A stretch of DNA of 64,000 nucleotides from an uncultured Alphaproteobacteria bacterium (GTDB taxonomy: Bacteria; Pseudomonadota; Alphaproteobacteria; HIMB59; GCA-002718135): the NCBI GenBank assembly GCA_902621725.1, contig CACNND010000005.1, positions 21,663-85,662 of the forward strand, read 5' to 3'. Below, piece after piece: positions 14,620 to 58,171 of this stretch (the first letter of the stretch is position 1; every line of letters starts with the position of its first letter). The notes under the pieces are model-generated. The model saw only the letters and a list, made by a program, of their open reading frames with translations. It was not told the origin of the DNA and did not search any database. Made by a program: the position numbers and the translations under genes.

Positions 14620-14636
14620 ATTATAGGTTAACTGTT

Positions 14637-16232
14637 TTGATAAATTTTAATTTATGGTCTAATTCTGTGGCGATAATTGCTTTAGTAATTATCGCCCCTA
14701 TTTTTTCAATATTTTATTACGCAATCTTAGGTGATACATCACTATGGCCACATCTTTTTTCTACTGTTTTGCCCAGATATCTTACCAATACAATAATTCT
14801 AATGTTTGGTGTTGGAGGATTAAGTTTAGTCTTTGGTTTGACTACTGCTTGGATAGTGACAAGATATAATTTTTTTGGGAAAAAATTTTTTGAATGGATG
14901 TTATTATTACCAGCTGCTGTCCCAGCTTATATTATTGCCTATACTTATACTGATTTTTTTGAATATGCTGGTCCTCTTCAATCATTGCTAAGAGACATAT
15001 TTGGTTGGACGAGCTCAAAAGATTACTGGTTTCCAAATGTGCGATCAATGGGAGGTGCAATTTTGGTAATGTCTTCTGTATTGTATCCATACGTATATTT
15101 AATGACTAGAGCATCATTTATAACGACACCTATATCTTTTTTTCAAACTAGTTCTATTTATGGAAGGAATTCCTTCTTCAATGTTGCTATTCCATTTGGT
15201 CGTCCTGGTATAATTGCTGGCTTGGCCTTAGTACTAATGGAAACAATTTCTGATTTTGGGACAGTTGATTATTTTGCAATTGAAACATTAACCTTAGGCG
15301 TATTTAATGTTTGGTTAGGAATGAATAGTCTATCTGGCGCATCACAGATTTCTAGTATTTTATTTATGATTGTTATAGTACTTTTAACTTTAGAGTATTT
15401 GGGTAGGCGTAGCAGAAAATTTCATGAAAAATATAGTGGTGCATCTTATACACCAACCCAAACAGTTTCTGGTATCAAAAATTCTTTATTGTTTTTAATT
15501 TGCTTAATACCTTTAAGTCTTGGTTTTATAATACCTGTTTCAATTTTATTGAATTTTGTAATTAAAGGTTATTCTGTAATAAATTTTTTTGAAATTTTTC
15601 AAATAACACTATCAAGTATATCTTTAGCATTTATTTCTTCATCATTCATAATGTTGCTATCCTTATTAATGATTATAGTTGGAGCATATAAATCAAATAA
15701 TTTCCAAAAAATTTTAATATTTTTTGCTTCTTCTGGTTATGCTTTTCCAGGAACAATTCTTGCTGTTGGAATAGTCGTATTTGTTGGGTGGCTTAATGAT
15801 TTAATTTATTTTCGTATGAGTTATGCCGTTGGCGGATTTATAATTTTATTATTTGCGTATAGTATAAGATTTTTAGCTGTTGGTAATGGAGCAATTACAT
15901 CAGGTATTTCAAGAATTCATCCAAACTTATTAGACGCATCAAGAACAATGGGTGTTAGCTTTTTCAAAAGTATAAGAAAAATTATATTACCCTTGCTGTA
16001 TACAAATTTATTAGTTGGAGGAATATTAGTTTTCGTAGACATCTTAAAAGAACTTCCAATAACACTTTTATTAAGACCATTTAATTTTGAGACACTAGCA
16101 ACCTATGTTTATCAATATGCCTCTGATGAAATGTTGGAGGAGTCAGCATTTGCAGCTCTAATTATAGTTATTGCTGGATTAGGACCGGTAATTTTTCTTA
16201 ACAGAACAATTACTAAATCAATAAAAAACTAA
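14637..16232 (+). CDS. Fe(3+) ABC transporter permease (FbpB/FutB type, two-domain)
   Basis: Polytopic; two EAA-type loops (IPFGRPGIIAGLALVLMETISDFGTVDYF; ILPLLYTNLLVGGILVFVDILKELPITLLLRPFNFETLATYVY). TTG start. Confidence 0.9.
   Translation: MINFNLWSNSVAIIALVIIAPIFSIFYYAILGDTSLWPHLFSTVLPRYLTNTIILMFGVGGLSLVFGLTTAWIVTRYNFFGKKFFEWMLLLPAAVPAYIIAYTYTDFFEYAGPLQSLLRDIFGWTSSKDYWFPNVRSMGGAILVMSSVLYPYVYLMTRASFITTPISFFQTSSIYGRNSFFNVAIPFGRPGIIAGLALVLMETISDFGTVDYFAIETLTLGVFNVWLGMNSLSGASQISSILFMIVIVLLTLEYLGRRSRKFHEKYSGASYTPTQTVSGIKNSLLFLICLIPLSLGFIIPVSILLNFVIKGYSVINFFEIFQITLSSISLAFISSSFIMLLSLLMIIVGAYKSNNFQKILIFFASSGYAFPGTILAVGIVVFVGWLNDLIYFRMSYAVGGFIILLFAYSIRFLAVGNGAITSGISRIHPNLLDASRTMGVSFFKSIRKIILPLLYTNLLVGGILVFVDILKELPITLLLRPFNFETLATYVYQYASDEMLEESAFAALIIVIAGLGPVIFLNRTITKSIKN
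14669..14706 (+). terminator. Terminator-like hairpin inside the 5' coding end of the iron permease gene
   Basis: GGCGATAATT-GCTTTAGT-AATTATCGCC (perfect 10 bp stem) followed by CCTATTTTTT. Confidence 0.45.
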
Positions 16233-16235
16233 AAC

Positions 16236-17282
16236 TTAATTCTTAAAAATATAAGCCTGATCATTATCAATTTCTATCTCGACTGCAGATGATTGTTTTG
16301 GATTAAAGTCAGCAGGCATGTGGCTATGAACATGAACAACTTCATTATTATTATCTAACACAGATAAATGGATAAAACTAAATGACCCCATTAATTTTGA
16401 CGCCATAACGGTTCCCTTAATTCCATTAACTGGTGTTGGTTGTTTGTTGAGTTTTATACCTTGAGGTCTTATGTGTACTACAACTTTCTCACCTTCTAAA
16501 TTTCCAGGTGTTTTAATTTTCCCAACCGGTGTGTAAATGTGAGATTCTTTAACAACACCTTCAAATTTATTTGTTTCACCAAAAAAACCTGTAACATATG
16601 AATTTTTTGGATTGTTATAGAGATCATTCGGAGTTCCTGACTGTACAATCGAACCTGATTTATCAAAAATATTTATATGATTTGAGATAAACATTGCTTC
16701 GAAAGGATCATGAGTGACTATAATTACAGACACATTTGATTTTTGTAATAGATGCAGCGTATCATCTCTCACCTCTTCTCGAAGGCTTAAATCTAAACTT
16801 GAAAAAGGCTCATCTAATAAAAGTAAATCGGGTTGTGAAATTATAGATCGTGCAAGTGCAACTCTTTGTTGTTCACCACCACTTAACTCGTGTGGGTATT
16901 TATCTAGTGAATTAGGTAATTTTATTAGTTCAATAATTTCATCAACATTATTAGTTGAATTCTTAGCATTAGTTGGAAATCTCAAATTTTCTTTTACTGT
17001 CAAATGTGGGAATAAAGCGTAATCTTGAAATAAAAAACCAATTTTTCTTTTTTCTGTAGGTAAGTGTTTTGCAGTACTACTTACTTCTTCACCATTAATA
17101 ATAATTTTACCTGACTGTACTTTTTCAAGACCTGCTATGAGCTTTAATAAAGTAGTTTTTCCACTACCTGACGGTCCCAAAATACAAGAGATACTATCTT
17201 TATTGAGATTAAAATTAATATTATTTAAAATTTTTTTATTATTAATCGAATGAGTAAGATCTTTAACTTCAACAGCAATCAT
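16236..17282 (-). CDS. ABC transporter ATP-binding protein (FbpC-like)
   Basis: Walker A GPSGSGKTTLL, signature LSGGEQQRVALARS, Walker B LLLLDEPFSSLD, C-terminal TOBE-like region; adjacent to and convergent with the Fe permease. Confidence 0.88.
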   Translation of the reverse strand: MIAVEVKDLTHSINNKKILNNINFNLNKDSISCILGPSGSGKTTLLKLIAGLEKVQSGKIIINGEEVSSTAKHLPTEKRKIGFLFQDYALFPHLTVKENLRFPTNAKNSTNNVDEIIELIKLPNSLDKYPHELSGGEQQRVALARSIISQPDLLLLDEPFSSLDLSLREEVRDDTLHLLQKSNVSVIIVTHDPFEAMFISNHINIFDKSGSIVQSGTPNDLYNNPKNSYVTGFFGETNKFEGVVKESHIYTPVGKIKTPGNLEGEKVVVHIRPQGIKLNKQPTPVNGIKGTVMASKLMGSFSFIHLSVLDNNNEVVHVHSHMPADFNPKQSSAVEIEIDNDQAYIFKN

Positions 17283-27594: not shown

Positions 27595-28488
27595 TTACTT
27601 CATGCCTGTCAAAGTAATTCCTTCAATAAATCGTTTTTGCGCGATTATAAAAGCAACAATAAGGGGAACTGTTACAGTAACTATTGAAGCCATCATAGGA
27701 CCAAATTCGTCACTATCTATTCCACCTCTGAATTCTCTTATACCAAGTGGTGGAGTAAAGAGATCTCTATTTCCTGTTATTACCATACGAGGCCAGAAAT
27801 AATCATTCCAGTGTGCAACAACTGAGAATATTGCAAAAGCAAGTAACGCTGGTATTGCAGTTGGAAGCATTACTTTCCATACAATTGCGTACTCTCCCAT
27901 GCCATCCATCCTGGCGGCATCAATTAATTCATCTGGCACAGTCATAAAGAATTGCCGCATTAAAAAGATTCCAAACACCGATATGGTCCAGGGGAGTATT
28001 AAGGCGGAATAGGTGTCAACTAATCCTGCCTGGGCTAACATAACATATAATGGAAGTGCAATTCCGTGAACTGGAATGAGCAAACAAAATAAAACCATCG
28101 AGAAAACAAATTCTCGTCCGTAAAACCGTAACTTGGCAAGTGCATATGCGCACGGTAAGGCGACTAAAACCTGAATGATAAAGATTGATAAAGTAACAAT
28201 GACACCATTCATTAAGTATCTAGGAATAGGAGCTTTTTCAAAAGCAAACCAATAGTTGTATTGATATGGCTTCATTGTACATGTTTCTTCTGAATAACCA
28301 GTTTTAACACATACAGGAAACGTTTGAGTTTCTTGTGCACCAATAAGACCACCAGAAATTGATTGGATTTCTTGCTGAGATTTTAATGACATTGAAACCA
28401 TCATATAAAAAGGGAGCATTACTACGATTGCACCAATAATTAAGATTGCATGCTTCCAACCTTCCCCAATATATTGTTTAGCTTCCAT
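27595..28488 (-). CDS. ABC transporter permease, MalG/UgpE family
   Basis: EAA loop ELIDAARMDGMGEYAIVWKVMLPTAIPALLAFAIF; YFWPRMV; C-terminal QKRFIEGITLTGMK. Confidence 0.92.
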   Translation of the reverse strand: MEAKQYIGEGWKHAILIIGAIVVMLPFYMMVSMSLKSQQEIQSISGGLIGAQETQTFPVCVKTGYSEETCTMKPYQYNYWFAFEKAPIPRYLMNGVIVTLSIFIIQVLVALPCAYALAKLRFYGREFVFSMVLFCLLIPVHGIALPLYVMLAQAGLVDTYSALILPWTISVFGIFLMRQFFMTVPDELIDAARMDGMGEYAIVWKVMLPTAIPALLAFAIFSVVAHWNDYFWPRMVITGNRDLFTPPLGIREFRGGIDSDEFGPMMASIVTVTVPLIVAFIIAQKRFIEGITLTGMK

Positions 28489-29444
28489 TAATAATGAACC
28501 CTCTTCTCAATGACATATCTTTGGAAAAACGTTAACACAAGAATAAATCCAATAAAGACAACAGTGATTGCTGCACCGATACTTGTTAAGTTTTGTTGAA
28601 TAGCTTTTTCAAAGATTGCATACATCATGACATACGTTGTTTTTGATGGACCACCTTTAGTAAGTATTTCGATAGTATCAAATACCTGAAATGTTCTAAT
28701 GGTAGTAATAGTCACAACAAACAACGTTGTTGGACCAAGCATTGGCCATGTAACAAGTTTAAATTGCTCCCATGTAGATTTAGCACCATCCATTTCTGCA
28801 GCTTGGTATAACTCTCTTGGTATACTTGTTAAGCCAGCTAAATATAAAACCATGTTAAAACCAAAAGCCTGCCAAATTCCTATGAAACATACTGTCCAAA
28901 TCGCAGTATTTTTTTGCTTTAACCAATATGGAAAATCCATGTTGTTTGCACATGCTACAGCATACCAGCTTTCTTGTGAGTCTACCCATGGCAACAAATG
29001 AAAACCAAGAATGAATTCTCTAACTCCTCCACACCCATTTGCTAAAAAACTATTTACAATTCCTAATGTTGGATGAAGAGTAAATTCCCATGCAATTGCC
29101 ATTGCAAGAAGAGTTGCCATAACTGGAAGAAAAAAAATTGTTTTATATATATCAGCGCCAAACCTTAGTGAGTTTAAGAGCATAGCAGCACATAATCCCA
29201 GTACAACAGAAATTGGAACGACAACAATAACATACGTCGCTGTGGCCCAAATCATTTTGACATATGTTTTTCGATTGAACATCTTGTCATAATTTTCTAG
29301 TCCAACCCACTCGAATGTTTTGTTTCCTAAATTGTAGTCAGTAAAAGAAATTCCTCCTGCAAGAAAAAGAGGAAAGATTAAAATAATTATCATCAGTATG
29401 ATTGCTGGTGCAATAAACCATATGTGAGCTTTTGAATTATGCAT
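28488..29444 (-). CDS. ABC transporter permease, MalF/UgpA family
   Basis: PLFLAGGISFTDYNL, ELYQAAEMDGAKSTWEQFKLVTWPMLGPTTLFV. Confidence 0.92.
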   Translation of the reverse strand: MHNSKAHIWFIAPAIILMIIILIFPLFLAGGISFTDYNLGNKTFEWVGLENYDKMFNRKTYVKMIWATATYVIVVVPISVVLGLCAAMLLNSLRFGADIYKTIFFLPVMATLLAMAIAWEFTLHPTLGIVNSFLANGCGGVREFILGFHLLPWVDSQESWYAVACANNMDFPYWLKQKNTAIWTVCFIGIWQAFGFNMVLYLAGLTSIPRELYQAAEMDGAKSTWEQFKLVTWPMLGPTTLFVVTITTIRTFQVFDTIEILTKGGPSKTTYVMMYAIFEKAIQQNLTSIGAAITVVFIGFILVLTFFQRYVIEKRVHY

Positions 29445-30570
29445 TAGTAAATTGAACTCTCATTCCTACTTGATTAAATAGTAATGCTTTATCTGAAACT
29501 CTTTTAATATTCACACTAGAACCGTTTGAAATTTGGTGTGTAAATTGTGGCAAGCCCCTTACAATTATTTTATTTGAACCGTCTTCAATATTTACATGAA
29601 AGAAAATATCTGAACCTAAATTTTCTCTATATGCAACTGTTCCACTAAATGTATTTTCATTACTTTCATTTGTAATTTCTAAATGTTCTGGTCGAATACC
29701 AATATGTAAATCTGTATTACTTTCAGAACTTTTTCTTTTTAAATTAACGTTGAGAAAACTTACTGTCCCACTTGAGTCCGAAGTTCCTTTAAATATATTT
29801 ATTTTTGGACTTCCAACAAACTGAGCCACACTTAATGAGGAAGGATTGTCATATACTTCTTGAGGTGTATCAAGTTGTAATAAATTTCCATCAATCATAA
29901 CAGCCATTCTAGAAGACATAGTTAATGCTTCTGCTTGATCATGTGTAACGTACACAAAAGTAGTTTTAAGTGAATTATGAAGTTCAGATAGTTCAGAACG
30001 CATGTGAACTCTCAAAGCCGCATCTAAATTTGAAAGAGGTTCATCCATTAAAAAGGCAACAGGCTCTCTAACCATAGCACGACCAAGAGCAACTCTTTGT
30101 CTTTGACCACCTGACAATTGTCCAGGTTTTCTATCTAATAGTTCTGAAATTTTTAGAGTTTCAGAAGTTTTATTTACTAATTGATTTATAGATTCTGTTT
30201 TCTCTTTTTTGCTTGGTGAAAAATTACCAATTAAGGGAAGTCTTTCAAATGCATTATAATCTCTAAGTCTTAATGGAGTTTCCAAATTTCTTCTTACTGT
30301 AAGATGAGGATAAAGAGCATATGACTGGAATACCATTGCCAAATCTCTTTCACTGGCTCTAACTCTATTTACATTTTTATTATCTATTAATACATCACCT
30401 GAAGTCTGCTGTTCCAATCCTGCAATTATTCTAAGTAATGTAGATTTACCACAACCAGATGGACCAACTAACGTTAAGAATTCTCCATCGTTTATATCAA
30501 CATTCAAATTATTAAGTACTTGTGTAGAACCAAATGACTTTGAAATATTTTTAAGTGATATTGTCCCCAC
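29437..30570 (-). CDS. ABC transporter ATP-binding protein, MalK/UgpC family
   Basis: [53 protein letters not shown]-terminal TOBE domain. Confidence 0.93.
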   Translation of the reverse strand: MGTISLKNISKSFGSTQVLNNLNVDINDGEFLTLVGPSGCGKSTLLRIIAGLEQQTSGDVLIDNKNVNRVRASERDLAMVFQSYALYPHLTVRRNLETPLRLRDYNAFERLPLIGNFSPSKKEKTESINQLVNKTSETLKISELLDRKPGQLSGGQRQRVALGRAMVREPVAFLMDEPLSNLDAALRVHMRSELSELHNSLKTTFVYVTHDQAEALTMSSRMAVMIDGNLLQLDTPQEVYDNPSSLSVAQFVGSPKINIFKGTSDSSGTVSFLNVNLKRKSSESNTDLHIGIRPEHLEITNESNENTFSGTVAYRENLGSDIFFHVNIEDGSNKIIVRGLPQFTHQISNGSSVNIKRVSDKALLFNQVGMRVQFTNA

Positions 30571-30639: not shown

Positions 30640-30668
30640 ATTTCAGTTTTATTTCAATTTTATTAACA
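30640..30668 (-). promoter_or_regulatory. Candidate degenerate Pho box (three 11-bp-spaced half sites) upstream of the Ugp-like ABC operon and phnA
   Basis: Minus strand: TGTTAAT-AAAA-TTGAAAT-AAAA-CTGAAAT in the 30571-30746 divergent region. Confidence 0.45.
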
Positions 30669-30746: not shown

Positions 30747-31988
30747 GTGTCCGATAATTTAGAAATTAATAAAAGAGAATATCCAAGCTCTTTCTCAAAA
30801 ACTGCTATTGTTATATGCCTTGATGGTAGTCAAAAAGAGTATCTCGAAGAAGCATCAAAATCTAATCTTACACCAAATCTTGATAAATTAATTGCAAGTG
30901 GTGAAAACCTACTTGTTCACAGCGCTATTCCAAGTTTTACAAATCCAAATAACATTTCGATTGTAACAGGCCAACCAAGTTCTGTACACGGTATATGCGG
31001 AAACTTCTTTTATACACCTGAGACGGGTGAAGAAGTAATGATGAATGACCCAAAATATATGCGAGCACCAACTATTTTTGAAAAATTTTACAATTCTGGT
31101 TCTAAAATTGCTCTTGTTACTGCAAAAGACAAGTTGAGAACACTTTTAGGAAACGGATTAAGTTTTGATGATGAGAGAGCTATTTGTTTTTCTGCTGAAA
31201 AATCTGATCAAGCAACAAAAGATCTCAATGGTATAGATAATGTAAACGATTGGTTGGGGATGCCAGTGCCAGAAGTATATTCTGAAGGACTTTCTGAATT
31301 TGTAATGGCTGCAGGTGTAAAACTTCTTGAGGAGTTTAAACCAAATATTATGTATTTATCGACTACGGATTATATTCAACACAAATATGCACCAGGAAAT
31401 GAAACAGCAAATAAATTTTATGCAATGTTTGATAAATATATTGGACTTTTAAATAAGGAGGATGTTTCTATAATCATCACAGCAGATCACGGAATGAAAC
31501 CAAAATCAAAAGAAGATGGTTCACCAAATGCAATATTTTTACAAGATTATTTAGATAAAAAATTTGAACCAAACATGGCTAAAGTCATCCTACCAATTAC
31601 AGATCCATATGTCGTTCATCATGGTTCACTTGGTTCTTTTGCAACAATTTATTTAGAAGACAAGAGCAGGGTAGATTCAGTTGTAAATGCTATTAAAGAA
31701 ATAAAAGATATAGAAGTTGTTTTAACAAAAGATGAAGGATGCTCTACTTATAATTTACCTCCTGATAGAATGGGGGATATTATATGTATGTCTTCAGAAT
31801 TTATGACTATTGGTTCATCGGAAGATAAACACAATCTTTCTGGATTAAATGAACCTTTACGCTCTCATGGAGGACTCCATGAAAGAGAAGTGCCATTCAT
31901 ATCAAATTTAAAATTACAAAACTTAGATACTAGCAAACAATTATATAACTATGATGCATTTTATTATGCAATAAATGGAGCCCTATGA
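30747..31988 (+). CDS. phnA: Phosphonoacetate hydrolase
   Basis: Alkaline phosphatase superfamily: [63 protein letters not shown] start. Confidence 0.92.
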
Positions 31989-33427
31989 TGCACAAAAAAA
32001 TGATTAATGAAGCAATGCGTATTGCTGGAGAAAAAGTTACTTCAGATAAAACAATAAATGTTGAGTACCCTTTTACAGGTGAAGTAATCGGAACGGTTCC
32101 AGCCGGTACCGCAGAGCATGCAAGAAAGGCTTTAGATATAGCTGCAAATTATCAGCCTAAACTTACAAGATATGAGAGACAAAAAATTCTTCAAACTGCT
32201 GCAGAAGTACTTGTTAAAAGAAAAGAAGAAATTTCTGATATTATTACTTTAGAACTTGGTATCTCAAAACAAGATTCTCTATACGAAGTAGGAAGAGCTT
32301 TTGATGTCTTTTCTTTAACAGCTCAACTTTGTATTCTTGATGATGGAGAAATATTTTCTTGTGATTTAACTCCACATGGAAAAGCGAGAAAAATATTTAC
32401 CATAAGAGAACCTTTAACGGCAATCTCAGCAATCACTCCATTTAATCATCCTTTGAATATGGTAGCGCATAAAATTGCACCTTCAATTGCAACTAATAAT
32501 TGTACAGTATGTAAGCAGACAGAATTAACACCTTTAACAGCAATGGTACTCGCTGATGTTTTATATGAAGCAGGTCTGCCACCAGAAATGTTTTCAGTTG
32601 TAACTGGATGGCCTCAAGATATCGGATCAGAAATGATCAAGAATCCAAATATTGACCTAATTACTTTTACAGGTAGTGTAGGTGTAGGAAAATTAATTGC
32701 TGAACAAGCTGGATACAAAAGAACAGTTCTAGAGCTTGGTGGTAATGATCCATTAATTGTTTTAAATGACTTAGATGGTGATGATCTTAAAAAAGCTGTT
32801 GAACTAGCTGTTACTGGAGCAACGAAAAACTCTGGTCAACGTTGTACAGCTGTTAAAAGAATACTGGTTCAAGAATCTATTGCAGATCAATTTGTTGAAA
32901 TGGCTCTTGAGCGTGCCAAGAAAATTAAATTTGGTGATCCTATGAATATGGAAACAGACTTGGGTACTGTTGTTAATGCTCAGGCTGCAGAACTTTTTGA
33001 TAAAAGAGTTTCTATGGCTGAAGAAGATGGTGCAAAAATTTTATATCACCCTGGAAGAAAGGGTGCTTTGTTACCTCCAATAGTTGTAGATCATGTTGAT
33101 CCTAAAAGTGAATTAGTTTTAGAAGAAACTTTTGGTCCAGTTATCCCAATCATTCGTGTGCCTAATGACGATGAAGCTGTAATGAAAATATCTAATTCAA
33201 CTGCATTCGGATTATCATCTGGTGTATGCACAAATAACTTCATGAGAGCAAAAAAATATATTCAAGGCTTAAATGTTGGCACTGTAAATATTTGGGAAGT
33301 TCCAGGCTATAGAATTGAAATGTCTCCTTTTGGAGGAATTAAAGATTCAGGTCTTGGTTATAAAGAAGGTGTAATTGAAGCAATGAAAAGCTTTACTAAT
33401 GTTAAAACCTTCTCACTACCCTGGTAA
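31985..33427 (+). CDS. phnY: Aldehyde dehydrogenase, probable phosphonoacetaldehyde dehydrogenase
   Basis: [59 protein letters not shown] overlap with phnA. Confidence 0.88.
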
Positions 33428-33493
33428 AAATCATTTTTTCTCTAATTTTTCTTTATTGCTGTGGAAAAATAAGCTTATTTTTTAGTAATATTT

Positions 33494-33511
33494 TCGTAAT
33501 AAAATTGTAAC
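33494..33511 (+). promoter_or_regulatory. Candidate Pho box upstream of the ABC substrate-binding protein
   Basis: TCGTAAT-AAAA-TTGTAAC, 7-4-7 direct repeat matching the one upstream of phoB. Confidence 0.65.
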
Positions 33512-33563
33512 CCTTTGGGGCTACATGTTAAATTAAATTATTATATTCAATCGGGAGGATTAA

Positions 33564-34904: not shown

Positions 34905-35984
34905 ATGCCTCTTACAACAACTACAATAGGTGCTTATCCAAAACCTAAACAAACACCCATTCAAGATTGGTTTTTAGGGACAAAATCAGAAGAAGAGAGA
35001 AAAGCATCAAAAGGATTATTATCAAATTGGTCACCTGGCGCATATGAAAAAGCATTAGAGTCTGCAGGTGCGGATGCTGAAAAATTATTTTTAGCAGCAA
35101 TTAAAGAAGTTATAACTGATCAAGTAAATGCGGGTATTGATGTTCCAACAGATGGGGAAGTTAGGCGCGAGAGTTATGTATTATATCAATGTCGATTTTT
35201 AAATGGTGTAAGTTTTCAGGAAGTTACACATAAGTCAGTAAGACAGGGTGCGTTTGAGGCTGACCTTCCAACTATTGTTGCACCAATTTCAAGTAAAGAA
35301 ATACGTATGCATTTAGATTGGAAGAGTGCACAACAATTTACAAAAAACCCAGTTAAAATTACGCTACCTGGACCAATGACAATTACAGATTCAATTGCCA
35401 ACAATTACTATGATGACATGAAAAAACTTGGTTTTGATTTAGCATTAGCCCTCAATAAAGAAATCAAGGCACTTGTAGATGCAGGTTGTCAGTATATTCA
35501 AATTGATGAACCAGTATTTGCTAGAAAGCCCGATGAAGCTCATTCTTACGGTATGGAAAATTTAGAAAGAATGATGCATGGTATACCTAAAGAAGTGCAA
35601 CGCGTTTGCCATATTTGTTGTGGTTATCCTAACTCATTAGATTCAGAAGGGTATAAAAAGGCTGATCTAGATGCTTATGATAGAATTGCATCACTTGTGG
35701 ATGATTCAACTATTGATGAAGTATCTTTAGAAGATTCACATAGGCATAATGATTTAAATCTTTTAGAAAAATTTACTAAAACAAAAGTAATTTTTGGATT
35801 TATTGATATTGCAAAAAGTAGAATGGAGTCTGTTGAAGAAGTAAGAGTTCGTATCAAAGATTCACTTGAACATATTGATGAACACCGTTTAATAGCTGCC
35901 CCAGATTGTGGTTTAGGTTTCTTTACACGAGAACAAGCAATTGAGAAAATGACAATTTTAACTAAAGCGGCAAAATCAATTTAA
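34905..35984 (+). CDS. MetE C-terminal-domain-like (stand-alone cobalamin-independent) methyltransferase
   Basis: TTTIGAYPKP, QIDEPVFARKP, VCHICCGYPN (HxC), EVSLEDSHRH, APDCGLGFFTRE: zinc-ligand set of MetE-type enzymes, lacking the N-terminal half. Confidence 0.88.
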   Translation: MPLTTTTIGAYPKPKQTPIQDWFLGTKSEEERKASKGLLSNWSPGAYEKALESAGADAEKLFLAAIKEVITDQVNAGIDVPTDGEVRRESYVLYQCRFLNGVSFQEVTHKSVRQGAFEADLPTIVAPISSKEIRMHLDWKSAQQFTKNPVKITLPGPMTITDSIANNYYDDMKKLGFDLALALNKEIKALVDAGCQYIQIDEPVFARKPDEAHSYGMENLERMMHGIPKEVQRVCHICCGYPNSLDSEGYKKADLDAYDRIASLVDDSTIDEVSLEDSHRHNDLNLLEKFTKTKVIFGFIDIAKSRMESVEEVRVRIKDSLEHIDEHRLIAAPDCGLGFFTREQAIEKMTILTKAAKSI

Positions 35985-35988
35985 GGTA

Positions 35989-37101
35989 ATGTGGAATTAT
36001 TTTAACCCTGTTGAAATTATCTTTGGAGAAAATAGATTTACAGAAGTGCATGATGCTCTTAAAAATAAGAACTACATCATAATCACTCATCCAGAAGAAA
36101 TTTTTAAAAAATATAGCGATGAATTAAAATCTTCTTCAAATCCACCTTTATCCATTATGACGGATGTTCAGCCTAATCCAGATTATAAGGATATTTTAGA
36201 GCTGCAAAATAAATTTTCTTCAATCAATGAATCGGTAGATTATATTTTAGCTATAGGTGGTGGCTCTGTTACAGATACAGCTAAAGCAATTGCTGCATTT
36301 AAAGATAAACAAGAATATCTAACAGATTTTGTTCGCAATAAAAAAAGTCCAAGAGTCGAAAATCCAATCAAGATTATTGCAATACCTACAACTTCAGGAA
36401 CATCAAGTGAGCTTACGTGTTGGGCCACAATATGGGATAAAGAAAAAAATAATAAATTATCTTTGACGCACAAATCTCTTTATGCAGAAAAAACAATTAT
36501 CGATCCATCTATTATGGTTGATAAGCCTTTAGGCTTGACCATTTCAACTGGTTTAGATGCTCTCTCCCATTCAATGGAAAGTATTTGGAATATTAATGCA
36601 AATCCAGTTTCTGCTTCTCATGCAATACAAGCATCAAAATTAGTATTAGAAAATTTACCACTTCTCACTAAAGATTTAAGAAATGTTGAATTACGCTCAA
36701 ACATTGCATTGGCGTGTGTTCATGCTGGTTTAGCGTTTTCCAATACGAAAACTGCTATTGCGCACAATCTATCATACCCTGTGACACTCAATTACGGTAT
36801 TCAGCATGGTATTGCTTGTTCATTTACTTTACCCATGATTACTAAAAGTATGGTTGGAATTGATAGTGTAGCTGAGGACAGACTAAAATTAATTTTTAAT
36901 AATAATCTTGAGAATGCTGCAGATCATCTGAGTGAATTTATGCGTTCTTTAGAGGTTCCTCTTAACTTAAATGAAATAAAAGTTCCTGTTCAAGAATGGA
37001 ATAATATAGTAGATGATGCGTTTTTAGGAGAAAGAGGTAAAAACTTTATTGGTAATAAAGAAGCCTTCATCTCTTCTGCTAAATCAATGGGACTTTATTA
37101 G
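35989..37101 (+). CDS. Iron-containing alcohol dehydrogenase, phosphonoacetaldehyde reductase-like (PhpC family)
   Basis: ILAIGGGSVTDTAKAIA, IAIPTTSGTSSELTCWATIWD, GLDALSHSMESIWNINANPVS, HNLSYPVTLNYGIQHGIACS. Confidence 0.8.
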   Translation: MWNYFNPVEIIFGENRFTEVHDALKNKNYIIITHPEEIFKKYSDELKSSSNPPLSIMTDVQPNPDYKDILELQNKFSSINESVDYILAIGGGSVTDTAKAIAAFKDKQEYLTDFVRNKKSPRVENPIKIIAIPTTSGTSSELTCWATIWDKEKNNKLSLTHKSLYAEKTIIDPSIMVDKPLGLTISTGLDALSHSMESIWNINANPVSASHAIQASKLVLENLPLLTKDLRNVELRSNIALACVHAGLAFSNTKTAIAHNLSYPVTLNYGIQHGIACSFTLPMITKSMVGIDSVAEDRLKLIFNNNLENAADHLSEFMRSLEVPLNLNEIKVPVQEWNNIVDDAFLGERGKNFIGNKEAFISSAKSMGLY

Positions 37102-38214: not shown

Positions 38215-39003
38215 TTATTTAAACCAATTAACTTCTGTTTTTAAAAAATCCTCTGTATGAATAATTAAGGCGTCAGATCGAATTATTGCAACATTATAAT
38301 TTGTATCTGTATTAGCCGTTCCTAAACGATATTCATTTGAAAAGTTAGGTATTAGAGGAGACCAAGTACTTCTTGGGGAGGAAAAAGTAATACCACAATA
38401 AGAACCAGAACTTGTAATGTGTTGATGACCAAAAAAAATATGTTTTATTATCTTATTATTTTTCGTTAAAATTTTTTGAAACTCTTTTTTTTGTTGTAAT
38501 CCTATTCCATCACTTTCCTCTTTTACTAATGCCAGTGGATTATGATGCATAAAGATGTACGTATCCGTATTAGTTTTACCTAAAATATTATTTAACCATT
38601 CTTGCCTCTCTTCACAGTAATGTCCTTGGTGAGTATTAATTAGATTAGTATCTATAAAAATTAAACGTTTATTATCTATATCCTTAAAGTATTGAATAAA
38701 TCCATTTGGATCGGTTTCAATATTAGGAAAGTTTATTTTAAACTCATCTCTGTTATCATGATTACCTATAATGAGTTGAGGATTTAAATTCTTTGGCAGG
38801 CCTGCTTCATCAATGATTTTTATAAATAACTGATAAGAATCTTTATCTCCTAAGTCTGTAATATCACCAGTGATGGCAAATAAATCTGCATCACCATGAT
38901 TATTTTTTATATGACTTAATGCTTTTTTAAATTTACTGACAGGATCTATGCCATGAATCTTATCTATGTAAATATGAGGGTCTGAAAGGTGAATAATTTT
39001 CAT
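38215..39003 (-). CDS. Class III metallophosphodiesterase (CpdA/GpdQ-like)
   Basis: LSDPHI, TGDITDLGD, IGNHDNR, MHHNPL, FFGHQH motifs. Confidence 0.87.
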   Translation of the reverse strand: MKIIHLSDPHIYIDKIHGIDPVSKFKKALSHIKNNHGDADLFAITGDITDLGDKDSYQLFIKIIDEAGLPKNLNPQLIIGNHDNRDEFKINFPNIETDPNGFIQYFKDIDNKRLIFIDTNLINTHQGHYCEERQEWLNNILGKTNTDTYIFMHHNPLALVKEESDGIGLQQKKEFQKILTKNNKIIKHIFFGHQHITSSGSYCGITFSSPRSTWSPLIPNFSNEYRLGTANTDTNYNVAIIRSDALIIHTEDFLKTEVNWFK

Positions 39004-39023: not shown

Positions 39024-39656
39024 TTAGATCGCAGTTTTAAAATAAATATATTTATTAAATTCCTCTTTTAAGTCGATGCTAACTCTTGCATGTACTTTAC
39101 CTTGTTTTCCTTGAAATGATTGTTTTTCTGTAACTGGAAACACACCTTCATGCCAAATATTTGGATGAATATATAAACCTTTTGATCCGTCACAATAAAA
39201 TGCTTTGAAATGTTCTGGTTCAATGTCGTCTGTTGGTAAGGCTAAAGGACAAATAAATGGTTTATTTTCTTCAGGAAAGAAAAGCTGACCTCCATCAGGA
39301 TGATAATTTGCATGCCATAAAAAAATTTTTGTTGGATCTGAATATTTATCTTTTTGTAATTCTTGATCAGGATTATTGGCATAGCCCAGTATATATTTTC
39401 CATCTACTTCATAATCGCTTTTATGTTGAACAGCATTATTTTGCCCATACAGCACGTCACCTTGCCACCAGGTATCAAAAGAACCTTCGGTAGTTCCACC
39501 TTCATTACCAGTTCCCTCTTCTATGTCGCGCCATCCTTGTTTTGGCCAAGTAACAATTTCAATATCACTATTTTCAAAACTATCGATTAAATACCCATAT
39601 CCTTTAAGATTTTCATTTGTTGCTTTAACTAAAGGTATTTCAATTTCTTTTGTCAT
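39024..39656 (-). CDS. Ureidoglycolate lyase (AllA)-superfamily-like protein of unknown function
   Basis: NYHPDGGQLFFPEENKPFICPLALPTDDIEPEHFKAFYCDGSKGLYIHPNIWHEG aligns by eye with the AllA core (ERHPLGTQAFIP...[21 protein letters not shown]). Confidence 0.65.
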   Translation of the reverse strand: MTKEIEIPLVKATNENLKGYGYLIDSFENSDIEIVTWPKQGWRDIEEGTGNEGGTTEGSFDTWWQGDVLYGQNNAVQHKSDYEVDGKYILGYANNPDQELQKDKYSDPTKIFLWHANYHPDGGQLFFPEENKPFICPLALPTDDIEPEHFKAFYCDGSKGLYIHPNIWHEGVFPVTEKQSFQGKQGKVHARVSIDLKEEFNKYIYFKTAI

Positions 39657-39663
39657 TATTTTG

Positions 39664-40761
39664 TTAGTTTAATGTTAATCCCAATTCAGTAACAACTTCT
39701 TTTACTGCTTTTATAGTATCCATCATGTCTTGTTCATCTAAATTACCAATACACCCAATTCTAAAAGTTTCTGCTACTGTTAGTTTTCCCGGATAAATTA
39801 AAAAATTTTTTTCACTAAGAGCATTATAAAACTTCTCAAAATTAAATTTAGGATCATCAGGTTGTTTAAAAGTAATAATAATTGGTGCTTGCAAATTATC
39901 AGGAAGTAATTGCTCAAATCCCAACTCTTTCATTCCATTACAAATAATTTCACAATTTTTTTTATATCTTTTACCTCTTCCTTTTACACCGCCTTGTTCT
40001 TTATGTTCTTCAATCGCTTGATTGAATGCAGCTAATACGTGTGTAGGAGGTGTAAATCGCCATTGTTTATTTTTTTCCATTGCTTGCCATTGATCATACA
40101 AGTCTAGACTTAATGAGTGACTATTGCCTTTTGCATTTTGAATAACTTCATTTTTAACAAGAATGAAACCAACACCTGGCACACCTTCTAAGCATTTGTT
40201 TGATGAAGCGGCTACAGCATCAAAAGTAATTGTTTTAGAACTTAAGGGTAATGCACCAAAGGCACTCATTGCATCGATGAACAGCGATAAATTTTTCATT
40301 TCAACTAATTTTGCAATGTCTTCAATAGGATTTAAAATACCCGATGTTGTTTCACAATATACAGCAAAGACGTGTGTTAAGTTGTTGCTATCAATTAACT
40401 CTTCAATTTTGTTGATGTCATGTACTTCATGTTCAGCAACTTCATATTCAATAAAATCTCTTCCTAAATAAGTGCACATTTTTTTCATTCTTTGTCCGTA
40501 AGCACCATTGATCAGAATTAGAATTTTAGAATCTTTTTGAGTAAGAGAGCTCACCATTGACTCTACAGCAAAAGTTCCACTTCCCTGCATTGGAACACAT
40601 TGATATTTATCTTCACCGTCTATTAATTTAACAAGAGAATCTCTAATTGATGCATTGAGATCAATAAATTTTGTATCTCTTGAACCCCAATCATGAAGCA
40701 TAGCCTCTTTTGTTGACATTGATGTCGTGAGAGGACCAGGGGTTAATAATTTTTTATCCAT
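39664..40761 (-). CDS. phnW: 2-aminoethylphosphonate--pyruvate transaminase
   Basis: LLTPGPLTTSMSTKEAMLHDWGSRD, PMQGSGTFAVESM, DAMSAFGALPL, SSNKCLEGVPGVGFIL. Confidence 0.95.
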   Translation of the reverse strand: MDKKLLTPGPLTTSMSTKEAMLHDWGSRDTKFIDLNASIRDSLVKLIDGEDKYQCVPMQGSGTFAVESMVSSLTQKDSKILILINGAYGQRMKKMCTYLGRDFIEYEVAEHEVHDINKIEELIDSNNLTHVFAVYCETTSGILNPIEDIAKLVEMKNLSLFIDAMSAFGALPLSSKTITFDAVAASSNKCLEGVPGVGFILVKNEVIQNAKGNSHSLSLDLYDQWQAMEKNKQWRFTPPTHVLAAFNQAIEEHKEQGGVKGRGKRYKKNCEIICNGMKELGFEQLLPDNLQAPIIITFKQPDDPKFNFEKFYNALSEKNFLIYPGKLTVAETFRIGCIGNLDEQDMMDTIKAVKEVVTELGLTLN

Positions 40762-40849: not shown

Positions 40850-41425
40850 ATGAGAATGGAAGAAAATATCGTAGATTACCTCTTAGATCTTTTGAAAACA
40901 AAAGGCGCTGATATTCAATATGGTAATGAGGATGTGACCCAGCTTGAGCATGCACTCCAATGTGCTGAGCTTGCTGAAAAACATAAATTACCAGGACCAA
41001 CAATTGCTGCAGCATTACTGCATGATGTTGGCCACCTTATCTATGAGGACGGCGATCCCATTCATGAAGGCAAAGATGGTCATCATGAAAATTTAGGTGC
41101 TGATTTTTTAAAAAAATATTTTGGTGAGGATGTTATTTTACCAATTAGAGCACATGTTGATTCAAAAAGATATTTATCAAGTGTTGAAGAAGGTTATTAT
41201 GATAGTCTATCAGAAGCATCAAAACTTTCGTTAAAAGTTCAAGGTGGACCTTTCTCAAAAGAAGAAGCAGAAGCGTTTATCAGCAAACCTTTTATGGATG
41301 AAGCAGTAGAGCTTAGAAGATTTGATGACTTAGCAAAAGTTCTAGATAAAAAAACTCCCGATGTTGAACATTTCCGCCCCTATTTAGAAGAAGCAAGACA
41401 GTCTTTTTTAGCTAAACAAGCGTAA
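40850..41425 (+). CDS. HD-domain protein, TIGR03276/PhnZ-TmpB-like (phosphonate-operon HDIG family)
   Basis: YGNEDVTQLEHALQCAELAEK, AALLHDVGHL, GKDGHHENLGADFL, PIRAHVDSKRYL. Confidence 0.85.
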   Translation: MRMEENIVDYLLDLLKTKGADIQYGNEDVTQLEHALQCAELAEKHKLPGPTIAAALLHDVGHLIYEDGDPIHEGKDGHHENLGADFLKKYFGEDVILPIRAHVDSKRYLSSVEEGYYDSLSEASKLSLKVQGGPFSKEEAEAFISKPFMDEAVELRRFDDLAKVLDKKTPDVEHFRPYLEEARQSFLAKQA

Positions 41426-41950
41426 ATGCAATTTAGCAATTATGATTTTATTGACTCTAAGTCATTTGCAGGAAAAATTATATTAACTTCCTTTCCAGGT
41501 CTTAATTCTAATGGCTTATTTGATGAAAAAATTTTAGCAAACGAATTAGATATATTCAAAAATAACAATTGTAGTTCTGTTACTTCTTTTGTTGAAGATA
41601 GCGAATTTGAAAAATTGTGTGATAAAACTTTGTTTGTCAAAAATATTTATGAACATAAATTACATTGGTACCATTTACCCATTTATGACATGGGAGCACC
41701 AGACAAAGATTTTAAATATAAATGGGAAACAACAAAAGTTTTATTAAAGAACGAATTGATAGATGGAAAAAATATAGTTTTGCATTGCCGTGGAGGAAAA
41801 GGAAGAGCGGGAACTATCGCTGCTATTTTACTTATAGAATTTAATTATCCTAAACAAGAAGCAATCGATTTAGTTCGATCAAGACGAAAAGGTGCAATTG
41901 AATCTAAAATTCAAGAAGAATTTATTTTTGCTTATAGAGCCGTAAATTAA
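41426..41950 (+). CDS. Dual-specificity/CDKN3-like protein phosphatase
   Basis: P-loop HCRGGKGRAGTIAA (HCxxGxxRxG), upstream general-acid loop LPIYDMGAPD. Confidence 0.85.
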   Translation: MQFSNYDFIDSKSFAGKIILTSFPGLNSNGLFDEKILANELDIFKNNNCSSVTSFVEDSEFEKLCDKTLFVKNIYEHKLHWYHLPIYDMGAPDKDFKYKWETTKVLLKNELIDGKNIVLHCRGGKGRAGTIAAILLIEFNYPKQEAIDLVRSRRKGAIESKIQEEFIFAYRAVN

Positions 41951-42999
41951 AAAGAAACTGTCAAATTAAAAATATTCTCTAGAATAAATAAAACTATCAA
42001 AGAAATTAATGCCGCTATTATAGGTAATGTCATCCAACCCAAAGAAATTCTACCAGCAATAGACCATTGTACTTCTTTACCACCTTTCAAAAGGCCTATT
42101 CCAATAACACCTCCAACAACAGCTTGCGAACTAGAAACAGGAACAAGTGGAATAGAAGGAAGATTAATAGATTGTAAAAAAGCACTTATACCCTGGGATG
42201 CAAATAAAAATAAAACTATAGAATGTGAAACAACAACAATAAAAGCTGCCACAGGCGACATCTTCAATAGATCGTTTCCTACTGTATACATTACTCTTTT
42301 AGAGTACGTAAAGACACCAACAGCAATTGCTAAACCACCCAGTAAAAATAATTGTTCTTTTGATGAAAAAATAAATAAGTTACCCATATTCACATCTGTG
42401 AAAGGAGAAATAGGTACAAACACTCCCATTACATTGGCAATATTATTTGCACCTAAACTATAAGCACCAAAAGCACCTGCTAAAAGTAAGGCTGTTCTTG
42501 TATAAGCATCCAGTCTTAAGATATGTAATTTTCTATTTAAAATAACTCTTTTTGTAAAAGTAAATAATCCCATTGCAATAATGCCAGCTATTATTGGACA
42601 CAGAATCCATGTGCTCAATATAGTTAATAAAACTTGAATATTAGTCGAAGATCCCGTGTATAAATTCCAACCAACAATTGCTCCTACAATTGCTTGTGTT
42701 GTAGAAACTGGCAAACCAACCTTTGTCATTAAGTAAACTGATATCCCTGCAGCTACACAGGCAGCGAATGCTCCAGGCAAAGCATTAATTGCACCAAGCT
42801 TTCCTAACGTTTCAGTTGTTCCTGCCCCACTTATAATCGCACCAAGAATTACAAAGACACTACAAATAATTGCTGCAGTTGTAAAACTAACCATTCGTGT
42901 TCCAACAGCAGTTCCGAAAACATTTGCAGCATCATTGGCACCAAGCGACCAACCTAAAAATAAACCACCAAGTAAAAAAATTAGAATTGTAATTTCCAT
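41947..42999 (-). CDS. pit: Inorganic phosphate transporter, Pit family
   Basis: GANDAANVFGTAVGTR, SLGANNIANVMG, VSSSQAVVGGVIGIG. Confidence 0.95.
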   Translation of the reverse strand: MEITILIFLLGGLFLGWSLGANDAANVFGTAVGTRMVSFTTAAIICSVFVILGAIISGAGTTETLGKLGAINALPGAFAACVAAGISVYLMTKVGLPVSTTQAIVGAIVGWNLYTGSSTNIQVLLTILSTWILCPIIAGIIAMGLFTFTKRVILNRKLHILRLDAYTRTALLLAGAFGAYSLGANNIANVMGVFVPISPFTDVNMGNLFIFSSKEQLFLLGGLAIAVGVFTYSKRVMYTVGNDLLKMSPVAAFIVVVSHSIVLFLFASQGISAFLQSINLPSIPLVPVSSSQAVVGGVIGIGLLKGGKEVQWSIAGRISLGWMTLPIIAALISLIVLFILENIFNLTVSF

Positions 43000-43005
43000 T
43001 GAAAA

Positions 43006-43668
43006 TTAAACGGAACGTTTAATAGCGTAAATTTGAACCTCGTCAGCTATGTCTTCTGCTTGATCACAAATACGATCAATCTTCTCTACAAAATAACGAA
43101 GATGCATTTTTTGATCTAGAGCTAATTCAGAATCAAAAATTCTTCTTGCAAGTGCACTAAATTTTATATCTGATTCTTTTTCATAAAAAGTTACTTTATG
43201 AGCATTATCTCTAACAGATTTAATATCTCTAAAAAATGATCGGACAGTCAAACAAAGTGACTCAACACAGTTTACAACTGTCTCTGTTAACTCAATTAGA
43301 TCTTCATGAAATTCTTTTGGAAAATTAGGTTTTTGAATAGAGAAGTGATAACAATTTCCTTGGTACATTCCAATTAATTCGTCGATGTGTTCTAGAAGTC
43401 GTAACACATCACTTCTTGCATCTGGGATTAGTGTTTCTTCATAAAGAGTATGCTCAACATCTTTCGTAATTTTGTCGGCCTTACTTTCCATTTCTTTAAC
43501 TTTTTTAACCATTTCCTCAAATTTACCATTGGCGGAATGATTGAGATAAGTTGGAACTATCGATTTAAATACTAAGCCCACTTCAGAGACAATATCAACA
43601 AACTCATCAATTTCTCTTTCAAGCTTTTTGGTATCACCAAATAATGATGCACTTTTTAATCCAAACAT
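43006..43668 (-). CDS. DUF47/PhoU-like protein (OrfA, Pit accessory)
   Basis: FGLKSASLFGDTKKLEREIDEFVDIV, helical PhoU-like; upstream of and co-directional with pit. Confidence 0.9.
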   Translation of the reverse strand: MFGLKSASLFGDTKKLEREIDEFVDIVSEVGLVFKSIVPTYLNHSANGKFEEMVKKVKEMESKADKITKDVEHTLYEETLIPDARSDVLRLLEHIDELIGMYQGNCYHFSIQKPNFPKEFHEDLIELTETVVNCVESLCLTVRSFFRDIKSVRDNAHKVTFYEKESDIKFSALARRIFDSELALDQKMHLRYFVEKIDRICDQAEDIADEVQIYAIKRSV

Positions 43669-43707: not shown

Positions 43708-43725
43708 GTTAAATTTTTGTTACAA
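43708..43725 (-). promoter_or_regulatory. Candidate Pho box upstream of orfA-pit
   Basis: Minus strand TTGTAAC-AAAA-ATTTAAC; the 17-mer TTGTAACAAAAATTTAA is identical to the sequence upstream of phoB. Confidence 0.65.
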
Positions 43726-43791
43726 TTTGATTAATATCTTTATCTTTAAGTAAAGTGTAATATTCGCAATCTATAGAATTTAGGAGAAGAT

Positions 43792-51201: not shown

Positions 51202-52222
51202 GATACCTTCGATTATTATTGCAATTGATACAAATAAGGAAATAATTTTTTACAATAATGCAGCTAAACAAAAATTTTTATTTATCGATGAAGGAAGAGA
51301 TCTCAATAATATTATTAGATCAACAGAGTTAAATACTTTTATTGATAAAGCCTTTAGGGAGAAAGAAGATTTTAAGTTTGAATTCACCCCATCTAATTTT
51401 AGTGATATGTATTTTATTGCTGACTTAATATTTGTTGAAAAAGATTATGAAGAATTATTAATATCACTTAATGATCAAAGTCTTCTTAAAAACTACGAAC
51501 AAATGCGAACAGATTTTGTGGCTAATGTAAGCCATGAATTGAGAACTCCTCTTTCCTCAATTCTAGGCTATGTTGAAACAATTAAAAATTCACTCAATGA
51601 AGATAAGACCAATGACAAAACGGTTGGTAAATTTTTAGACACAATGGAAGATCAGGCTTGGCGTATGACTAGACTAGTCGAAGATTTATTATTACTAAGT
51701 AAATATGAGACTGAAGATAAACCTATAGAATTTCAAGAAGCGAATATAAGGCAATTAATTGAAGGCGTAGTAGATAATTTACAAAACAAGTTAATGGCCA
51801 AAAAAATTGAAGTTCAAATCAAGGATGATTTTGATAAGTCTACAATATCAGCAAACAAAGATGCTTTGATCCAAGTTTTTTTAAATCTAACTGATAATGC
51901 AATTAAATATAGCAGAGAAAATTCTACTATTGAAATTGAGCTTGAAAGTGTAATTGATGACAATACTACCTTTTGCCAAATAAGTTTTATAGATAAGGGA
52001 GAAGGCATATCGAAAGAGCATTTAACTAGACTTACTGAAAGATTTTATAGAGTAGATAAAAATAGATCTCGAAATCAAGGTGGTACGGGTTTGGGTTTAT
52101 CTATTGTTAAACATATAACTAATAGGCATAATGGTAAATTATCGATAAAAAGCAAGGTAGATAAGGGTTCAACATTTACTATTTCTTTACCAGTATTTCA
52201 GCAAACTGTAATAAATACTTAA
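51170..52222 (+). CDS. phoR: Phosphate-regulon-type sensor histidine kinase, apparently without TM segments
   Basis: PAS-like N-terminus; FVANVSHELRTPLSSILGYVETI, NLTDNAIKYS, GEGISKEHL, GTGLGLSIVKHI; next to pstSCAB-phoU-phoB. Confidence 0.9.
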   Translation: MKKKLRLSLSKIPSIIIAIDTNKEIIFYNNAAKQKFLFIDEGRDLNNIIRSTELNTFIDKAFREKEDFKFEFTPSNFSDMYFIADLIFVEKDYEELLISLNDQSLLKNYEQMRTDFVANVSHELRTPLSSILGYVETIKNSLNEDKTNDKTVGKFLDTMEDQAWRMTRLVEDLLLLSKYETEDKPIEFQEANIRQLIEGVVDNLQNKLMAKKIEVQIKDDFDKSTISANKDALIQVFLNLTDNAIKYSRENSTIEIELESVIDDNTTFCQISFIDKGEGISKEHLTRLTERFYRVDKNRSRNQGGTGLGLSIVKHITNRHNGKLSIKSKVDKGSTFTISLPVFQQTVINT

Positions 52223-52223
52223 T
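52206..52223 (+). promoter_or_regulatory. Candidate Pho box upstream of pstS
   Basis: CTGTAAT-AAAT-ACTTAAT, second half degenerate; overlaps the 3' end of phoR. Confidence 0.45.
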
Positions 52224-52265
52224 ATATATTCTGTAAGGACAACCTTATTTTAAATGAGGCTTAAT

Positions 52266-57446: not shown

Positions 57447-57448
57447 AT

Positions 57449-57466
57449 TGTAATAGAATTGTAACA
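57449..57466 (+). promoter_or_regulatory. Candidate Pho box upstream of phoB
   Basis: TTGTAAT-AGAA-TTGTAAC, continued by AAAA-ATTTAAT; ATG of phoB only 21 nt downstream of the box. Confidence 0.7.
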
Positions 57467-57487
57467 AAAATTTAATAGTAAAGATCC

Positions 57488-58171
57488 ATGAAACTAAAAA
57501 TGCTTATCGTGGAAGATGAAGAAGCATTACTAGATCTTCTTAAATTTAATTTTAATAAAGAAGGATATAAAATAGATACTGCAACGGACGGTGAAACTGC
57601 TTTAGAAAAAATATTATATAAACCACCTGACATAATTATTCTTGATTGGATGTTACCAGAGTTATCAGGAATTGAACTTTGTCGTAGAATTAGAAAACAT
57701 AAAGAACATAAGAATATTCCTATCATAATGTTAACAGCAAAAGGTGAAGAAGAAGATAAACTGCGCGGCTTAGAAACTGGAGCAGATGATTACATAACAA
57801 AACCCTTTTCGGTTAACGAATTAGTGGCAAGAGTAAAAGCTGTTCTTCGACGAATAAGACCAATGTTTGTAGATGAAGTTTTAACTTATAAAGGAATAGT
57901 AATTGATCTTGTATCTCACTCGGCATCACGAGATGGCGAAACTCTTCATCTTGGTCCAACAGAATTTAATTTATTAGCTTTTTTTATGGAAAATATTGGT
58001 CGTGTCTTTAGCCGTGAACAATTACTTAATCATGTTTGGAAAAATGAGGCCCATGTAGAACCTCGAACAGTTGATGTTCATATAAGAAGACTACGAAAGG
58101 CCATTAATAATGACGTAAAAGAAGATTTTATAAGAACCGTGAGATCAGCAGGATATTGTTTTGGCTCGTAA
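57488..58171 (+). CDS. phoB: Phosphate regulon response regulator
   Basis: MLIVEDEEALLDLLKFNF, PDIIILDWMLPELSGIELCRRIR, MLTAKGEEEDKLRGLETGADDYITKPFS, VDVHIRRLRKAI. Confidence 0.95.
   Translation: MKLKMLIVEDEEALLDLLKFNFNKEGYKIDTATDGETALEKILYKPPDIIILDWMLPELSGIELCRRIRKHKEHKNIPIIMLTAKGEEEDKLRGLETGADDYITKPFSVNELVARVKAVLRRIRPMFVDEVLTYKGIVIDLVSHSASRDGETLHLGPTEFNLLAFFMENIGRVFSREQLLNHVWKNEAHVEPRTVDVHIRRLRKAINNDVKEDFIRTVRSAGYCFGS

Follow-up and report, generated by a model that had tools for sequence, protein, structure and literature searches.

AEGEAN-169/HIMB59 bacteria are prominent in the phosphorus-starved surface ocean, and the annotations of their transporters lean to sugars. For the AEGEAN-169 clade, its sugar importers have been emphasised (PMC10308909). 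The locus described here raises the question of whether one such importer, assigned to carbohydrates by homology, in fact serves the uptake of a phosphorus source under the control of PhoB, as the first-pass annotation proposed from a Pho-box-like repeat in front of its binding protein gene. The 64-kb stretch of contig C5 analysed here (the window) has a GC content of 31 % and belongs to a 1.38-Mb genome in 65 contigs of approximately 82 % completeness. Its genes agree with an origin in AEGEAN-169/HIMB59, the clade to which it probably belongs, judged from this content and from its relatives. No description of this importer was found in the searched literature.

PHO boxes of the importer genes

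The repeat TCGTAATAAAATTGTAAC was confirmed at 33494-33511 (plus strand), 52 bp upstream of the start codon (33564) of the gene for the substrate-binding protein (SBP), with the 7-4-7 layout ascribed to it. The sequence had been read correctly but the actual unit is longer: an extra half-site, TAGTAAT, lies in register at 33483-33489 with the 11-bp spacing, and the two half-sites noticed at first are the second and third of a 29-bp triple repeat (33483-33511, Table 1). The claimed match with the layout of the phoB repeat held as well and extends to the triple form. The phoB copy begins at 57448 and reads TTGTAAT-AGAA-TTGTAAC-AAAA-ATTTAAT. The DUF47/Pit promoter has the same form (TATTAAT-CAAA-TTGTAAC-AAAA-ATTTAAC). 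A further box, not mentioned in the first-pass annotation, was located at 30640-30668.

A PHO box is defined by at least two direct repeats of 7 nt that recur with an 11-bp period, and three half-sites were found at both importer promoters. PhoB is encoded in the same genome (57488-58171, above the TIGR02154 cut-off), and the same motif occurs at its other phosphate genes, i.e. phoB, DUF47/Pit and pstS. The arrangement is like that of the E. coli PHO boxes and PhoB operators, in which 7-nt direct repeats with the same 11-bp spacing precede the genes for phosphorus uptake; E. coli ugp, too, has more than one box (PMC4415409). It differs in the half-site, which is CTGTCAT in E. coli and TTGTAAY-like, with three copies in register, in this AT-rich genome. 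In contrast to the E. coli PhoB operators and the ugpB promoter, the importer is here split over two divergent promoters, each provided with a box.

Table 1. Positions of the importer, phn and phosphate-related features in the window
Feature	Position	Strand	Basis
ABC permease, UgpE-like	27595..28488	-	Profile match, below cut-off
ABC permease, UgpA-like	28488..29444	-	Profile match, below cut-off
ABC ATPase, UgpC-like	29437..30570	-	Profile match, below cut-off
PHO box of the ATPase-permease operon (second importer box), TGTTAAT-AAAA-TTGAAAT-AAAA-CTGAAAT	30640..30668	-	Matrix rank 4 (untrained); top rank in most of the f2 loci checked
phnA, phosphonoacetate hydrolase	30747..31988	+	TIGR02335, 467 bits (cut-off 408)
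phnY, phosphonoacetaldehyde dehydrogenase	31985..33427	+	TIGR03250, 797 bits (cut-off 636)
PHO box of SBP, TAGTAAT-ATTT-TCGTAAT-AAAA-TTGTAAC, three half-sites	33483..33511	+	Sequence; matrix rank 3 (untrained); conservation
TACATG, putative -10-like element	33522..33527	+	Sequence, partly conserved; begins 10 bp past the box
SBP, CUT1/UgpB-like, 417 aa	33564..34817	+	PF01547/PF13416; best NCBIfam match UgpB, below cut-off; phosphate tetrad
MetE-like (Meth_synt_2) protein	34905..35984	+	Profile matches; present or absent together with the importer
PsrA-like iron alcohol dehydrogenase, phosphonate-associated	35989..37101	+	TIGR03405, 364 bits (below cut-off 424)
Calcineurin-like phosphodiesterase (SpdA-like)	38215..39003	-	Profile matches
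phnW, 2-AEP-pyruvate transaminase	39664..40761	-	Above cut-off
Phn-HD (PhnZ-like) oxygenase	40850..41425	+	TIGR03276, 201 bits (cut-off 215)
PHO box of the DUF47-Pit operon (41947-43668)	43708..43736	-	Sequence; matrix training site
Weaker PHO box upstream of pstS (52254-53261)	52195..52223	+	Matrix rank 5 (untrained)
PHO box of phoB	57448..57476	+	Sequence; matrix training site
phoB	57488..58171	+	TIGR02154, 330 bits (cut-off 296)

Motif scans

The first-pass annotation had staked its proposal in part on a genome-wide scan rising above the background. This depended on the stringency used. The strict pattern TNGTAAYNNNNTTGTAAC matched exactly only twice in the 1.38-Mb genome, at the SBP site and at phoB, with approximately 0.35 matches expected by our composition estimate. 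When two mismatches were allowed, 70 matches were obtained versus 59 in the reversed control, and since this is the background level the loose scan is uninformative. Further genomic matches to the first pattern, with one mismatch, were discarded, as they lie within genes or between convergent gene ends, except for the DUF47/Pit site. The pattern TTGTAAYN5TTTAAY was not enriched by itself (3 exact matches versus 2.5 expected by our estimate); it is informative solely through its occurrence in three promoters.

A 29-bp matrix was trained solely on the phoB and DUF47/Pit promoters, with the SBP site left out. On both strands of the window the SBP box came third of approximately 128,000 positions, behind both training sites. 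Its score was 17.1 bits, followed by the ATPase-operon box (15.1), pstS (12.8) and the next string (11.5), and 0.025 matches at the level of the SBP box are expected per 64 kb of first-order Markov sequence (1 match in 40 replicates). In a genome scan with a five-site model DUF47/Pit, SBP, pstS and phoB stood on top before a fall to 11.9 bits, and the ATPase site reached 18.0 bits in the unfiltered window scan only; as it was built from these very sites, all that the model can indicate is that no other sites of equal strength exist, as far as the first-look filter allows. A few intragenic strings scored as high as real sites. A high-scoring string at C13:13544 was rejected as a PHO box because it is placed inside a hydrolase gene.

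Conservation of the boxes and coupling to phoB

In 45 distinct upstream sequences from the same genus the 29-bp box was quieter than its surroundings, and the third half-site varied least (mean column entropy 0.04 bit versus 0.87 in the next 10 bp). In the phoB and DUF47/Pit boxes of relatives the spacers vary and the half-sites are mostly kept. The two importer boxes are found again in another family of the order (f2), in which the SBP promoters have a different appearance; in most of the 17-kb f2 loci checked, the matrix gave its highest rank to the ATPase promoter and the next to the SBP promoter. The triple box could be used as a PhoB motif for the clade.

The phoB gene was present in 26 of 29 strong-box genomes and in 4 of 12 weak-box ones (Fisher p = 6e-4, a value that ignores shared ancestry and comes from incomplete genomes, 53-90 % complete). 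The phnA-phnY loci devoid of the importer had no high-scoring box at the phn genes, so the box goes with the importer; the DUF47/Pit box was kept in four of them, at 32-34 bits. Regulation of phnA by the box was also considered and found no support, again because importer-less phnA loci have no box there. In four loci of the same order (L117, L118, L122 and L145) the SBP box was lost and the importer kept; L145 also has a PhnS2-like importer downstream.

A flexible phosphate island (fGIp) has been described for the HIMB59 order (PMC10734472); it corresponds to the right-hand part of the window with ppk, ppx, phoR, pst and phoB. The fGIp passage of that paper describes island versions without PhoR-PhoB and reports no other P-metabolism genes outside fGIp for the HIMB59 family; the importer-phn cluster and its boxes, which adjoin the island in the window, are absent from the description given there.

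The binding protein and its pocket

The SBP scored 119.7 bits with PF01547 and 119.3 bits with PF13416, above the gathering score, as expected of a CUT1 binding protein. With the UgpB equivalog NF008211 it reached 65.9 bits, the cut-off being 411. Judged from these matches, it is a diverged UgpB-like CUT1 protein. An AlphaFold model of the SBP (eight sequences) had a mean pLDDT of 46.

In UgpB structures with G1P/G3P the phosphate is contacted by Tyr64, Ser143, Ser266 and Tyr342, and the glycerol by Glu88, Arg393 and Gly303 with Trp188/Trp191 (PMC12718374). The SBP was aligned to UgpB (PDB 9lff), for which 20 was added to the residue numbers of the paper to obtain those of the chain, a shift consistent with all the residues named. 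In this alignment, which carries the tetrad argument at 25-28 % identity, all four phosphate contacts are kept as Y67, S143, S259 and Y338, together with the equivalents of Gly303 (G298) and Trp188 (W188). Two of the glycerol contacts are missing: the position of Glu88 has no acidic residue and T384 stands at that of Arg393. Plain G3P would be disfavoured as the ligand because of the loss of these two. All orthologs tested have the full tetrad, those of approximately 35-45 % identity among them, as does E. coli UgpB. It was found in one of the 13 other SBP_bac_8 proteins of the genome, several of the rest having been aligned only in part.

The importer is like the UgpBAEC glycerol-phosphate importer (CUT1) in its family, gene types, phosphate tetrad and the Gly303 and Trp188 equivalents. 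It differs in that all its subunits fall below the UgpB/A/E/C cut-offs, the Glu88 and Arg393 equivalents are lost and the second Trp is displaced, and in its linkage to phnA-phnY and the MetE-like gene. The AepXVW and PhnS2T2 importers of 2-AEP are likewise associated with phnA-phnY in the same order (L353). However, the AepX and AepS binding proteins are of pfam13343 (PMC8316502), whereas the SBP belongs to another family and gave no TIGR03261 or family match to AepX/PhnS-type 2-AEP binding proteins; moreover, no PHO box was found at the phn genes of PhnS2T2-type loci.

The single other tetrad-bearing protein of the genome (C10:23185-24525, minus strand; L279, G000:C10:20500-25900) is also UgpB-like. 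A PHO-like triple, CAGTAAA-TTTT-TTGTAAC-AAAA-CTTTAAT, lies near C10:24557-24585 (minus strand), upstream of this second UgpB-like SBP, and makes it an unplanned second case of a tetrad with a box.

Gene context in the order and beyond

The phnA-phnY genes are situated between the two halves of the importer. All SBP-bearing loci of the order with a long enough flank contained the ATPase, the permeases, phnA and phnY (ATPase and phnA in 56/56 f1 and 17/17 f2 loci), and the MetE-like gene was present in 59/59 f1 and 16/16 f2 loci. In total 77 of 78 SBP-bearing genomes had phnA, the exception being due to a contig edge. In the 12 phnA loci of SBP-less genomes phnA-phnY were kept, and the ATPase, both permeases, the SBP and the MetE-like gene were jointly missing; the importer and the MetE-like gene therefore appear to be a unit that comes and goes. 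psrA was variable among these importer-less phnA loci. The phosphodiesterase gene was rejected as part of the importer cassette in the order, since importer-less loci have it too. G091, a genome that consists of a single contig and lacks the SBP, carries a phnS2/phnT2 importer of 2-AEP near phnA-phnY, together with an oxidoreductase of TIGR03364. The f2 loci have phnA, phnY and psrA, with no phnW nearby. This fits a study reporting AEP hydrolytic genes for AEGEAN-169, of which part of one clade has phnY and phnA alone (PMC11366302). As a guess, a methylated substrate might be the clue to the role of the MetE-like gene. A URO-D-superfamily protein is also encoded near the importer in Roseovarius (L144).

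Orthologs of 34-70 % identity in other alphaproteobacterial families are encoded in ATPase-permease-permease-SBP operons, with a calcineurin-like phosphodiesterase gene commonly next and a LysR gene sometimes before. Roughly half of these ortholog-bearing genomes outside HIMB59 have no phnA, and phnX was present in 2 of the 13 tested. The importer neighbours in Roseovarius and one other genome are catabolic, without a clear phosphorus link. The operon structure and the distribution of phnA and phnX among these outside orthologs favour a phosphorus ester as ligand in general; for the HIMB59 order itself, phosphonate esters or phosphonates are possible. The orthologous importer of Filomicrobium (L146, 2975-3751) has phnX and an additional CUT1-type ABC set as immediate neighbours.

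Predicted regulation and candidate ligands

The cassette is quite probably a PhoB-controlled importer of an organic phosphorus compound, acting through three-half-site PhoB operators. The step taken in the first-pass annotation from a PHO box to a phosphorus-source importer was supported by the second box, the recurrence in f2, the coupling of box and phoB, the tetrad and the adjoining phnA/phnY. Under low phosphate, phosphorylated PhoB would bind head-to-tail to the 7-nt half-sites at 33483-33511 and recruit RNA polymerase to the -10 element 10 bp downstream, by which the SBP would be switched on. The matching operator at 30640-30668 would switch on the divergent ATPase-permease operon, and the two transcription units would give a single CUT1/UgpB-type ABC importer taking up an organic phosphorus compound. 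That the repeats are chance AT-rich strings is highly improbable: the two-mismatch motif is indeed at background and some intragenic strings score equally, but the leave-one-out rank and location of the box, its conservation as a promoter footprint, the recurrence in f2 and the coupling to phoB and to importer presence speak against chance. A true carbohydrate importer that came under Pho control by happenstance would agree with the CUT1 family membership and the many sugar importers of AEGEAN-169 (PMC10308909), and is nevertheless unlikely in view of the complete phosphate tetrad, the phnA-phnY linkage and the two PHO boxes.

As to the ligand of the PhoB-controlled importer, a phosphate or phosphonate ester with a tail other than free glycerol is ranked first and seems about evenly balanced between right and wrong. 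Second, as a possibility of clearly lower standing, comes a small phosphonate in free form that would enter PhnY-PhnA (2-hydroxyethylphosphonate, phosphonoacetate or 2-AEP); any other compound comes third, as a rather improbable one. One plausible, if minority, explanation is a glycerophosphodiester or other phosphodiester importer, a counterpart of ugpBAECQ, for which the position around phnA-phnY would be mere clustering of phosphorus genes. The best family matches are UgpB/A/E/C, a calcineurin-like phosphodiesterase gene ends many orthologous operons, and the tetrad is common to glycerophosphocholine- and dinucleotide-binding CUT1 proteins (PMC12718374). However, the glycerol-reading Glu88 and Arg393 are missing, the phosphodiesterase gene of the order is absent near f2 importers and occurs in importer-less loci, and the perfect phnA-phnY linkage would be left without explanation. 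This linkage, seen in every long-enough locus of the order, would be accounted for by a CUT1-type stand-in for the AepX/PhnS2-type 2-AEP importer, feeding free phosphonate into PsrA-PhnY-PhnA (2-hydroxyethylphosphonate) or PhnW-PhnY-PhnA (2-AEP). The presence of phnS2/phnT2 instead of the SBP in the complete genome G091 and of psrA without a nearby phnW in f2 are in line with it; it is held only tentatively, as orthologs of 60-66 % identity occur in phnA/phnX-less genomes in operons with the phosphodiesterase, phnA-phnY persist without the importer, and psrA only loosely tracks it. It is also conceivable, as a speculative proposal, that a CUT1 'sugar' importer for phosphonates or phosphonate esters (e.g. 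2-hydroxyethylphosphonate, free or esterified) was captured around phnA-phnY under PhoB and replaced the AepX-type route, in a lineage that is uncultured and abundant in the ocean.

If uptake of organic phosphorus by this importer is true, part of the 'sugar' signal of the clade would be phosphorus scavenging, and the cassette would supply PhnY-PhnA by a phosphate-responsive route that a single purified protein would suffice to test.

Other genes around the cluster

In most f1 loci a gene for a ureidoglycolate-lyase-like protein (39024-39656 in the window) adjoins phnW. To our knowledge, this protein has no role in phosphonate breakdown. Another ABC set, at 13606-17282, has a binding protein resembling FbpA and an ATPase that matches PhnT2 below the cut-off, and could be an iron or a 2-AEP importer. 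The DMT-family protein encoded at 26732-27580 matches 'phosphonate utilization associated putative membrane protein' below the cut-off, and its gene is found beside phnA in most importer-less loci too.
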